DNA of 36,120 nt. It comes from a virus. The stretch covers positions 1 through 36,120 of the IMG/VR virus record IMGVR_UViG_3300025769_000358; one strand, written 5' to 3'. A model generated the notes under the pieces. That model worked only from the letters and a program-made list of their open reading frames with translations. It was not told the origin of the DNA and made no database searches. Position numbers and translations under genes: made by a program. Positions 19,053 through 27,218 of the stretch are shown here, in pieces (the stretch's first letter is position 1; each line of letters begins with the position of its first letter).

Positions 19053-20156
19053 ATGGGTACTCCCATAATCGACAAAAAAAGAGCTCGTCTGTTTGTTGAG
19101 ACTGTTGAGCGTAAGTTGTCTGAAGGCTATCCCCCACCCGGAGTTTCGGTGCAGGGGAAAAGGGGCGCGTTGCGTGCTGCCTGCGAAGAACTTGGGATAC
19201 CGCAAGGCAGCACCTGCTCTAGGCTTGCCGCCTCAGAGCGAGCTTACCGAGAGGTCAACTGGTCGTTAAAAGAACATCCAAAAGACTTTGATCTGCCGGT
19301 TTTTCCTGAAGACGATATCCCGATTGAGGATATGCTAGATCACCTGTCCCGTAGATTTGAAAAGAAACTGGCAAACGAAGATGCCAAGACTTGGTTTGAG
19401 GTTAAAATAAATATCTCTGGTCCTGTGGGTTTGGCTGTTGTCGGCGATCCGCACTTGGGAACGCACTGCAACATACCTCTGCTGCGGCGCGACATCGAGA
19501 TCATGTCTCAGACTGAGGGGATGATGGCCGTTAACATCGGAGATACCGCCGACAACTGGGGTCGGATGATTCACCTATACGCCGAGGACGACATAAGCCG
19601 TCCCACAGAACGCAAGCTGGCACGTTGGTTTCTGCGCGATGCCGGTGTTCCGTGGGTCGTCTGGCTGCACGGCAATCACGACACCATGCACGGAGAGTTC
19701 TCGACTTTTCTGAAATCCGAAAACGTAGCGCAGATACCAATGGTCGATTGGCGCGCTAAATTCAAGCTGCGGTTCCCCGGTGGTGGTGAGGTTAAAATCG
19801 ACGCGGCACACAATCACAAAGGAACGTCGATATACAACAGATTGCACGGCCAAAAACGAGCCGCTTTGTGGGACGAGGACGCCGACATCTACGTCGCCGG
19901 GCACCACCACACATGGGCTTTGACTCACGAGGAAATGGAGGATGGGCGTGTCGTCTGGATGGGTCGCGCTCGTGGTTACAAATGGATCGATGAATACGCA
20001 ACACGGCATAACTTCCACCGCGACGAGCATGGTGCCACCATCCTATTCGTGATTGACCCCGTGGAGGAGAACGCCGTCAGGAGGATCAGCGCGTTCGCCG
20101 ATCTGGAGGAGGGCGCTGACTTCCTGACGTGGAAAAGAAAAAGGGCAGCCCGTTAA
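19053..20156 (+). CDS. Calcineurin-like metallophosphoesterase
   Basis: A 367-residue protein with all core motifs of the two-metal phosphoesterase superfamily: GDPHLG (131-136), GDTADN (163-168), GNHD (207-210), HNH (253-255) and GHHH (283-286). Residues 1-75 are a helical N-terminal region resembling a DNA-binding HTH (RAACEELGIPQGSTCSRLAAS). Phage members of this superfamily may act on DNA ends or nucleotides; the substrate here cannot be told. It follows the o-spanin stop by two bases. Its TAA stop shares the palindrome TTAA with the stop of the opposite-strand gene, so the two operons meet with a four-base overlap. Confidence 0.85.
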   Translation: MGTPIIDKKRARLFVETVERKLSEGYPPPGVSVQGKRGALRAACEELGIPQGSTCSRLAASERAYREVNWSLKEHPKDFDLPVFPEDDIPIEDMLDHLSRRFEKKLANEDAKTWFEVKINISGPVGLAVVGDPHLGTHCNIPLLRRDIEIMSQTEGMMAVNIGDTADNWGRMIHLYAEDDISRPTERKLARWFLRDAGVPWVVWLHGNHDTMHGEFSTFLKSENVAQIPMVDWRAKFKLRFPGGGEVKIDAAHNHKGTSIYNRLHGQKRAALWDEDADIYVAGHHHTWALTHEEMEDGRVVWMGRARGYKWIDEYATRHNFHRDEHGATILFVIDPVEENAVRRISAFADLEEGADFLTWKRKRAAR

Positions 20157-20347
20157 GGTTCGACGTCATCCTTCGGTGTCTCAGAATCAGCCGTCGGCGA
20201 AGGTTTCTCGGGCAACGCCAAAAGCCGCAAGGCCCACCTCTTAACCGTCTCCGCATCATTGAATTCAAGTCGGACCATATAGGCCCGCTTGTCTCTGTCG
20301 CTGACGCCTGCTTCCCAATCGACAAGACCTTTGAGAAAGTCACTCAT
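20153..20347 (-). CDS. Small protein of unknown function, end of the leftward operon
   Basis: A 64-residue protein, leftward, with GAGA before the ATG. It opens MSDFLKGLVDWEAGVSDRDKRAYMV, has a likely helical EFNDAETVKRWALRLLAL segment, and ends in an acidic, Pro-containing tail. No family is recognised with confidence. It is the last gene of the leftward operon, and its stop shares TTAA with the stop of the metallophosphoesterase. Coding is supported by operon position, ribosome site and a plausible amphipathic sequence; function is unknown. Confidence 0.6.
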   Translation of the reverse strand: MSDFLKGLVDWEAGVSDRDKRAYMVRLEFNDAETVKRWALRLLALPEKPSPTADSETPKDDVEP

Positions 20348-20394
20348 CGTTCTCTCCCGTCTCAGATTTCCTGTTAGCCATTCTTCTCTGCTCC

Positions 20395-20586
20395 CTATTC
20401 CGACGGCTGGCGGCGGTCTTTGAACTTCCGCACAAGTTCATCGGTGTTGCATTTCTCCGGCCCGTAGATAGTGCCGCAGCGCCGGTGCGCGATACTGAGA
20501 TAATCTTGGCCGCACCAAGCGCAGCTCCAACGGCGAGCGGTCGATACGCTACACCCGAGAAGGTCGGCGGCTTCCTTGTTTGTCAT
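20395..20586 (-). CDS. Small HTH plus zinc-ribbon protein
   Basis: A 63-residue protein. The first 20 residues (TNKEAADLLGCSVSTARRW) look like the helix-turn-helix of excisionase/MerR-type proteins. They are followed directly by CAWCGQDY and later by CGTIYGPEKC, a probable four-cysteine zinc site. An AAGGAGG ribosome site lies nine bases before the ATG. This is a small DNA-binding regulator candidate, possibly an excisionase-like or transcription factor. The fusion of a minimal HTH with a zinc site is unusual. No target is identifiable. Confidence 0.65.
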   Translation of the reverse strand: MTNKEAADLLGCSVSTARRWSCAWCGQDYLSIAHRRCGTIYGPEKCNTDELVRKFKDRRQPSE

Positions 20587-20587
20587 T

Positions 20588-20713
20588 TCAGTGAGCCTCC
20601 TTAATGATTACTAGTCTGTTCATGTCCGTCTCCGCTCGTTTTGCTGGCAGTGGGGGCCGGGGCATCCGCGATGCGATCCGGCGAGGAACATCTCCGTGCG
20701 ATTGCTCAGACAC
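20588..20713 (-). CDS. Possible 41-residue protein (GTG start)
   Basis: A short leftward frame with GTG at 20713 preceded by GGAGA about ten bases away, ending one base before the start of the HTH/zinc gene. The product is basic and proline-containing and ends in MNRLVIIKEAH. It fills a gap in an otherwise tightly packed operon, which is the main support. A second short frame in the same gap contains CPGPHC and cannot be excluded instead. No function is assigned. Confidence 0.3.
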   Translation of the reverse strand: MSEQSHGDVPRRIASRMPRPPLPAKRAETDMNRLVIIKEAH

Positions 20714-20726
20714 GCCCCAATCTCTC

Positions 20727-25766: not shown

Positions 25767-25819
25767 GGCATTTTTCGGAAAAGTGCCGTGTGACGGCGTG
25801 TGATGGCGTGTGTGATTGG
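25756..25819 (+). repeat. Four short CGTGTGA-type repeats and an imperfect palindrome
   Basis: CGTGTGATTG (25756-25765), CGTGTGACGG (25787-25796), CGTGTGATGG (25797-25806) and CGTGTGTGATTGG (25807-25819) are near-copies in the same orientation. The middle ones are exactly tandem. Between the first and second lies an imperfect palindrome (25767-25787, GGCATTTTTC...GTGCC). The repeats sit in the non-coding gap before the replication-type genes and could be iterons or operators. Nothing further is recognised from 25820 to 25913. Confidence 0.5.
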
Positions 25820-25913
25820 CGCGGAAATGGGATATGTAATGGAATCAACGACTTACAATAGGCTCGTGCGGTTGATAGAAAACAGTCACATGCAGCAACC
25901 GCATAGGTGTGTG

Positions 25914-25939
25914 TGTTCCCCCCCCTTTAGGGGGGAACA
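25914..25939 (+). promoter_or_regulatory. Very stable hairpin before the 25970 gene
   Basis: TGTTCCCCCC (25914-25923) pairs with GGGGGGAACA (25930-25939) around a six-base loop, and flanking GTGTG and CACAC can extend it with a small bulge. No T-run follows, so it is not a normal terminator. It lies 18 bases before the GGAGG ribosome site (25958-25962), where it could protect the transcript or regulate translation. Confidence 0.6.
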
Positions 25940-25969
25940 ACCACACGGGCAGAATTCGGAGGTCTTAGA

Positions 25970-26539
25970 ATGAGGCGAAAAAGGCAAAAACCCGACAGGG
26001 GCATCAATAGGGTATTCGGGGCGAATGATAGGGTATATCGGAAAATCCAAAGCGCCTTGATCGAATATGATAAGGGCGTGGCGGAAATAGAGCGGGAGTG
26101 GGGCTTTGAGCGATTGCCCGAGTTGGTGTCTCCGGGGTTGCGTGAGCGCTTCGAGAACCAAATGGATCGCCTAGACGCGGCGATACTTGCGGATGACGTC
26201 GATGCCGTTGAGACACAAGCGGGAGGTGCGTTGCGGGCACATCAGGCGCTTGCGGCGGAGGCGGAGGCAATGGGCCACAAGCCTTTAACGGGCCAGCACT
26301 ACGCCACCGAGACGCCCGATGGGCGGGCTTTCTGTATCGCGCCCTCGCCAGCGGAAGCCCGGCGGGTGCGCGACGAGCGCCCCGACGCCATTGTCTATTG
26401 CGCGCGAGAGGTCGCGGCGATTGTCGCCTTGTTCGAGGACGGCGAACTTGTGCAAGCTGTGAAGGAGGCGTTTCCCGGTGCGACCATTGCGGCGATTGCG
26501 GACAAGGGGGAGGTGCCGGATGACGAAATCCCTTTCTGA
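25970..26539 (+). CDS. Unknown protein with an SSB-like C-terminal tip
   Basis: A 189-residue protein with GGAGG eight bases before the ATG. The N-terminus is very basic (MRRKRQKPDRG), followed by helical, charged sequence and a C-terminal part with APSPAEARRVRDERPDAIVY. It ends VPDDEIPF, nearly the conserved acidic tip of bacterial SSB proteins (DDDIPF) that recruits replication and repair enzymes. No OB fold is recognisable. The gene overlaps the initiator gene by 20 bases, and the codons for the tip also contain the initiator start. Inferred role: replication accessory protein that borrows SSB-binding host proteins. Confidence 0.65.
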   Translation: MRRKRQKPDRGINRVFGANDRVYRKIQSALIEYDKGVAEIEREWGFERLPELVSPGLRERFENQMDRLDAAILADDVDAVETQAGGALRAHQALAAEAEAMGHKPLTGQHYATETPDGRAFCIAPSPAEARRVRDERPDAIVYCAREVAAIVALFEDGELVQAVKEAFPGATIAAIADKGEVPDDEIPF

Positions 26540-27218
26540 CGAGATGCCGGAAATCAAGCGGCAATGGTCTGTTTTGCCCGTTAGGGCGTTGCTGGATCGA
26601 AAATTGAGCGAGAACGAATTCCGCATTCTGGCGGCGATGTGCATATATACCAATTCTCACGGCGTTTGCTGGCCGGGCGGAAAGACGTTGGCGGCGATTG
26701 CGGGTGTCGATCAAGCAACGGTGTCGCGCACGATTGCACGCCTTGGGAGGGCGGGATATGTCCGCCGCCTTGAACCAAAAGATTATCAAATGGAATTCGC
26801 AAAGTTCGGAAAGATTGCGCGTTATCAAGTGATGTATCGCGAGGACGCGCCGCTCCCGTCGTGGGAGGAGGTCCAATCTTCTATGGTCCTCGCCCCCGTC
26901 GATGAAGTGCCTGCCTCGCATATAAATGACAAGGGGTCTGGGGACGATGACGAATTGGTGTCTCTCTCTCACTCTCTCGCGCACGCCTACCTGCGCGCCG
27001 TGACGCGGGTCACCGGGCAAACGCGATCATTCGACAACGAAGTGCGGCACGCCCGCAAATTGGCGGCGGATGGCGCGACGGTCGAGGCGGTGACGGTGGC
27101 GACCGAGGCGACCTGCAGGGACTGGCTGTCGAAAAGAGCGGGCATTCCGGCGCTGTCCGACGTGGCGGCGACGATGCGCCACAGGCAAATGGACGTTTGC
27201 ACGGGTGCGGTCGTTTGA
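26520..27218 (+). CDS. Winged-helix replication initiator-like protein
   Basis: A 232-residue protein starting at 26520 with GGGGGAGG just upstream. Residues of about 20-85 form a helix-turn-helix of the HTH_36/RepA type: LLDRKLSENEFRILAAMCIY, SHGVCWPGGKTLAAIAGVDQATVSRTIARL. Such domains occur in plasmid replication initiators and in lambda O-like phage proteins, and would bind the origin. The remainder is less conserved, with a helical C-terminus. A transcription regulator is the main alternative. It overlaps the previous gene by 20 bases and precedes the region containing the primase-helicase. Confidence 0.72.
   Translation: MTKSLSDEMPEIKRQWSVLPVRALLDRKLSENEFRILAAMCIYTNSHGVCWPGGKTLAAIAGVDQATVSRTIARLGRAGYVRRLEPKDYQMEFAKFGKIARYQVMYREDAPLPSWEEVQSSMVLAPVDEVPASHINDKGSGDDDELVSLSHSLAHAYLRAVTRVTGQTRSFDNEVRHARKLAADGATVEAVTVATEATCRDWLSKRAGIPALSDVAATMRHRQMDVCTGAVV

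Follow-up and report, generated by a model that had tools for sequence, protein, structure and literature searches.

The window, that is, the whole stretch of 36,120 nucleotides analysed here (IMG/VR virus record IMGVR_UViG_3300025769_000358), contains at 20153-27218 a block of early genes that an earlier note, made from the letters alone, had read as a plasmid-like maintenance cassette inside a podovirus, suggestive of a phage-plasmid or otherwise temperate state. We compared this block with related phages, plasmids and bacterial chromosomes. Gene identities come from hidden Markov model (HMM) scans of the open reading frames (ORFs) with Pfam and PHROG, and each search covers only the collection named with its result. 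The features of the region are the following.

20923-21156, minus strand: LexA-like winged-helix protein lacking a peptidase domain, encoded immediately downstream of YqaJ (PF01726, 4e-5, at threshold)
21157-22119, minus strand: YqaJ/RecE-type recombination exonuclease (phrog_434, 2e-28)
22120-22447, no strand: interval between recombinase and YqaJ, where the genome of an integrated relative was opened; no dif-like site in the window
22448-23089, minus strand: small serine recombinase of resolvase/invertase size, 213 amino acids (PF00239, E=1e-26)
23091-25029, minus strand: variable early cargo, comprising DUF7699, a small ORF and ArdC (HMM and comparison of contigs)
24145-25029, minus strand: ArdC antirestriction protein (ArdcN and MPTase-PolyVal; actual start MTKQ at 25029)
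25030-25125, no strand: promoter region from which the leftward and rightward early genes diverge (gene orientation)
25126-25323, plus strand: small regulator with a putative Arc/ribbon-helix-helix (RHH)-like fold (conserved sequence pattern)
25320-25766, plus strand: PDDEXK nuclease / RusA-like Holliday junction resolvase (PF24608, 1e-13; phrog_244, 3e-15)
25755-25821, no strand: iteron-like copies of GTGTGAT/GTGTGAC (repeat search and relatives)
25914-25939, no strand: palindrome TGTTCCCCCCCCTTTAGGGGGGAACA (comparison with relatives)
25970-26539, plus strand: g25970, a conserved protein without assigned family that accompanies HTH_36 (word array upstream in every relative examined)
26520-27218, plus strand: HTH_36 winged-helix and helical domain, initiator/helicase-loader-like (PF13730, E=1e-9)
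27742-30189, plus strand: g27742 and AAA_25 primase-helicase, in which the replication region continues beyond the block

The serine recombinase, ArdC, the HTH_36 gene and the LexA-type domain on which the earlier note relied are thus all present by HMM, the last at threshold; the YqaJ/RecE exonuclease, the PDDEXK nuclease and the primase-helicase that follows them had not been named there.

Conservation of the block in a phage lineage

The record ends in an overlap in which positions 1-347 repeat 35774-36120 (no strand, 97% identical) inside the portal gene, which is divided between the two window ends. The overlap of 347 bases therefore closes the record into a circle of about 35.8 kb, a near-complete genome; 9 of the 347 bases differ, so that the assembly mixes strains of a slightly mixed population. 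The virion genes are of the short-tailed-phage type, with a T7-like scaffold, tail tubular proteins, internal virion proteins and portal.

At least 596 relatives emerged when viral contigs were searched by capsid; the 80 best were taken for comparison, and searching with the serine recombinase added 80 loci. About 100 related viral contigs have the same early genes in the same layout. YqaJ adjoins the serine recombinase on the same strand in all 67 recombinase loci with enough sequence (67/67), and in the recombinase loci the Arc-like gene and the PDDEXK nuclease are mostly divergent from it. The Arc-like gene, PDDEXK nuclease, g27742, primase-helicase, g25970, HTH_36 and terminase recur around the recombinase in its 80 loci and also in the longer of the 80 capsid loci, where the terminase genes are separated from the early region by HTH_36, g25970 and the primase-helicase. 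ArdC is restricted to near-identical contigs; elsewhere in the group, other small genes and homing endonucleases occupy the gaps around the recombinase.

The nearest isolate, MEP301, infects OM43 bacteria (Methylophilales) and was obtained by cell lysis (PMC8024684). Its capsid, portal and TerL are 63%, 68% and 64% identical to those of the window, and it shares with it a short tail, a circular assembly and a serine recombinase followed by YqaJ. It differs in having an ERF annealing protein after YqaJ (order recombinase-YqaJ-ERF), no detectable HTH_36 or g25970, no ArdC and a methylotroph host. The MEP301-type group has been delimited by a gene share of at least 40% with MEP301 and by TerL clustering with it (PMC8024684); of 26 window genes used as queries, 8 have a match in MEP301 at E<=1e-4, mostly those for virion and packaging.

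Since the layout recurs in relatives, MEP301 has the recombinase-YqaJ pair and ArdC is confined to near-identical contigs, the comparison indicates that the block is lineage-core phage DNA with a variable cargo slot and not an insertion. The GC-rich codon use described earlier is real, with GC at third codon positions (GC3) of 0.53-0.73 in the block and 0.45-0.65 for the majority of late genes. It is no sign of an insert, because high GC3 continues outside the block in g27742 (0.70), the primase-helicase (0.65) and one tail-fibre gene (0.75). We therefore consider it probable, at roughly 0.8, that a MEP301-like marine podovirus has here its conserved early region for replication and recombination, which is inherited together with the virion genes and is not a plasmid maintenance cassette.

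Two close relatives (contigs L118 and L119), compared with window 20366-25034, share the recombinase-YqaJ segment at 96% identity with a sharp break just outside it; the break points fall at about window 23099 and 20957, so that the cargo has been swapped on both sides.

The contrary proposal, in which HTH_36 is a plasmid-type Rep protein acting on iterons, the serine recombinase resolves multimers and the prophage is circular, starts from an arrangement (initiator, iteron-like words and resolvase-type recombinase in the window) that plasmids also show, and the contig does close into a circle. Lytic phages with terminal redundancy are equally expected to give circular assemblies, and one is reported for MEP301. 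A search among 72,556 plasmids, which the earlier note had proposed as a check, gave no match to the block by megablast and none to the initiator or the capsid protein by tblastn, and scans covering the block as well as the other main ORFs detected no ParA/ParB partition family and no toxin-antitoxin family. The sole lysogen that we found is chromosomal (see below). What had been named in advance as contrary to the proposal, lytic relatives with the same block or chromosomal integration, was largely found, the former as the recombinase-YqaJ pair of MEP301. A plasmid-like maintenance block thus gives way to genes that are core in a phage lineage; a phage-plasmid state of the window phage is not supported and we regard it as very improbable, which removes a false lead for an abundant marine phage group.

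A candidate replication origin upstream of g25970

The short tandem repeats reported at 25787-25821 exist, but in the window alone they do not exceed background; they gain weight from the relatives, since a word array occupies the same place in each one examined. In the 230 bp upstream of g25970 the dominant 6-mer has on average 7.0 copies versus 2.7 in control stretches of the same contigs (25 members), and 60% of the loci lie above the control 99th percentile, with about 4-13 copies of one word per 230 bp. The word itself is GTGTGA in the window, CGAACC in L005 and L006, CCGACC in L116, GCTGCC in L103, ATGTCC in L008, GGGGAC in the integrated relative and ATCACA, ATCGCA or ATCTCA in others. 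Most members also have, 25-55 bases before g25970, a palindrome centred on CCC..GGG that the word commonly flanks. The array keeps its place upstream of g25970 despite reordering of neighbouring genes between genomes; in L103, for instance, HTH_36 lies before g25970 rather than after it. A repeat array in conserved position beside an initiator gene is therefore found in the relatives, and weakly in the window alone. GC skew in the window tracks the coding strand, with no origin signal.

At window 25750-25969 and at the same place in 24 relatives, the word switches among related phages and the layout stays constant.

The HTH_36 protein matches phage initiator, O-like and DnaD-like PHROGs, and its predicted model has a winged helix-turn-helix (wHTH) plus a helical domain. 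Like lambda-type O and DnaD-like replisome organisers, it has a winged helix, resembles an initiator and is encoded close to a repeat array and a primase-helicase gene; unlike them, it shares sequence similarity in the wHTH part only, the array precedes a second conserved gene (g25970), and the word differs by genome. The initiator and its nearby repeats therefore keep their origin-like character as the phage's own, and lose the plasmid-type reading first given to them. Because the array keeps its position and an O/DnaD-like initiator stands beside it, the simplest and most likely reading of word array and palindrome is an iteron-type origin of the phage itself, at which binding and replication are predicted from sequence comparison.

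Several results weigh against a replication and recombination region with its origin at this place. The window repeats do not rise above background by themselves; word and recognition helix covary weakly (Spearman 0.22), and near-identical recognition helices can accompany different words; MEP301 has no detectable g25970 or HTH_36; a Foldseek search with the HTH_36 model gave nothing below E=0.001; and no target or crossover site of the recombinase (res, gix or att, degenerate sites that could be missed) was found. The array and palindrome could instead be operators of a transcriptional regulator. The array does lie just upstream of a gene start, and some words (TGTGA/TCACA) resemble common operator halves, but 4-13 copies in 230 bp are denser than usual for operators, and the array stays before g25970, beside an initiator-type gene, when the neighbours change. 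We consider operators the less probable interpretation and retain the iteron-type origin.

On this reading, the rightward Arc-like regulator and Holliday-junction-type nuclease are followed by the array and palindrome as the likely origin, at which g25970, the HTH_36 initiator and the primase-helicase would load the replisome. A more speculative extension, which we hold only tentatively, is that a single origin architecture (word array, CCC..GGG palindrome, g25970 and HTH_36) with a genome-specific word sorts these phages into specificity groups like plasmid incompatibility groups and that, in some members, a dif-type site beside the recombinase operon adds a removable, Xer-dependent integration module. 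Such groups would bear on whether related phages replicate side by side or exclude one another. The candidate origin with its genome-specific words, the tie of the serine recombinase to YqaJ and the integrated relative described below are three points that can be tested.

A relative integrated at dif and the role of the serine recombinase

A single scan of 84,980 species genomes by capsid alignment revealed a MEP301-like prophage in a contig of a Hyphomicrobiales metagenome-assembled genome (MAG) (JAIXTP010000026.1, 186,520 bases), with a capsid 68% identical to that of the window. The prophage extends from about 63.5 to 98.8 kb (63500-98850; loci L211-L215, G032:C36), has a full gene set and is 92% coding. 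It is flanked on the left by an ntrY-like kinase, ntrX, hflX and mazG, and on the right by an MBL-fold gene, a tatD-like gene, metG and holB. Seven related genomes have a dif site in the short interval between mazG and the MBL gene, and this site agrees with published dif sequences of rhizobia (PMC2731167). The dif sequence is intact at the right end of the prophage (98831, no mismatch) and occurs again at the left end (63504) with the XerD arm changed. The opening of the phage genome falls between YqaJ and the serine recombinase operon, and YqaJ is followed by a gene for a XerC-like tyrosine recombinase. The relative is therefore a complete prophage exactly at the chromosomal dif site; misassembly, although this is a MAG contig, is unlikely because relatives have empty sites at the same locus.

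Like Xer/dif-integrating phages (CTXphi-type; Jorvik in Rhodobacter, PMC10589892), this relative is inserted exactly at chromosomal dif; unlike them, it is a tailed podovirus that encodes its own XerC-like recombinase. We found no earlier case in the literature of a MEP301-like tailed phage integrated at dif and encoding a Xer enzyme of its own. Its presence means that the MEP301-like group includes temperate members and is not purely lytic. The temperate state suggested earlier thus occurs in the lineage but is unproven for the window phage, which lacks that Xer gene and site: the window has no tyrosine integrase by a PF00589 search, as had been stated, and nothing dif-like in its recombinase-YqaJ interval (0.8 bits). 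The XerC-like gene was absent from all other loci compared at that stage, and a scan of viral contigs for it gave no confirmed match. Capsid searches yielded one close prophage only in 397 Hyphomicrobiales genomes, and in 385 Alphaproteobacteria one further member-level match (G033), the remaining capsids being more distant; of these alphaproteobacterial matches six were checked for the serine recombinase, which was either missing or no more than weakly matched.

A second member, in a Polaribacter MAG contig, has a dif-like 28-mer, AGTTCGCATAACATATATTACGATAAGA, between recombinase and YqaJ (L220:6188-6215) that scores 19.0 bits against a maximum of 7.8 in control stretches of 700 bases. This contig has no PF00589 match, and the 28-mer is possibly a phage attachment site (attP) using the host Xer. 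Separately, a dif-like 28-mer on the minus strand of the window at 11720-11747, TAATGTCCTGATACATATTATCGAACTT, scored above 100 shuffles; it was rejected as an attachment site, having a poor XerC arm and lying inside a virion gene, and is probably due to chance.

Residues R8, S10, R75 and R120 of the serine recombinase do not vary across 20 relatives, among them MEP301 and the dif prophage. Its catalytic domain, with invariant R8, S10 and R120, is that of gamma-delta resolvase and the Gin/Hin invertases, from which it differs in its 213 residues ending in the start of the PF07508 Recombinase domain, in the lack of a res or gix site and in its tie to YqaJ. The conserved catalytic residues, and the opening of the integrated relative's genome within about 1 kb of the gene, would suit an integrase that makes the window phage temperate by chromosomal integration. 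That junction, however, is a dif site with the prophage's own Xer recombinase beside it. In L006, L008 and L095 only 2-4 bp separate recombinase and YqaJ, leaving no room there for an attachment site, and a motif search around the gene gave clade-specific words only and no shared palindrome. Since the gene is retained in a prophage with its own Xer integrase at dif, is retained in a phage isolated by lysis and abuts YqaJ so closely in some members, an integrase is unlikely.

A DNA invertase that switches a promoter or tail gene is suggested by the best PHROG and by the top-scoring solved relatives, both DNA invertases, and by the nearby divergent promoter. An inverted-repeat search for invertible segments in the window gave weak pairs only, none convincing, and 479 near-identical contig pairs showed no inversion; we give this role very little credence. 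Our best guess is multimer resolution or a part in YqaJ-linked recombination. The leftward genes comprise variable counter-defence and homing cargo (here ArdC), the serine recombinase, YqaJ and the LexA-like wHTH protein. YqaJ probably processes DNA ends for annealing-type recombination, and the probable task of the serine recombinase is to resolve multimers or to act on circular or concatemeric phage DNA. Where members of the lineage integrate, they do so with a Xer enzyme, at a dif-type site that separates YqaJ from the recombinase operon. Gene content, synteny, absence from the plasmids searched and the dif prophage are direct observations; the functions given to the origin, the recombinase and the regulator are inferred.

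Other features of the early region

The RHH regulator proposed at the divergent promoter is plausible from a conserved pattern, 'LRLR..T...LR...SAHRSM.ALADEIL', but the fold itself is not proven: Pfam Arc is touched by one family member only (E=0.02), and the AlphaFold monomer, one long helix, is uninformative on fold. The LexA-like gene is found downstream of YqaJ also in relatives L006, L120, L125, L169, L191 and L220. Within it, window 21050-21099 contains perfect inverted-repeat arms of 14 bases, GGCGAAGCTCCAAC and GTTGGAGCTTCGCC, 22 bases apart, which recur nowhere else in the window. The block also contains a further small gene.

20395-20586, minus strand: small HTH_23-like DNA-binding protein (PF13384, E=6e-6)

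Finally, window 24001-24084 and 24964-25047 form an 84-base near-duplicate (87%) that spans the ribosome-binding region and the first 20 or so codons of both ArdC and the ORF at 23641-24066.

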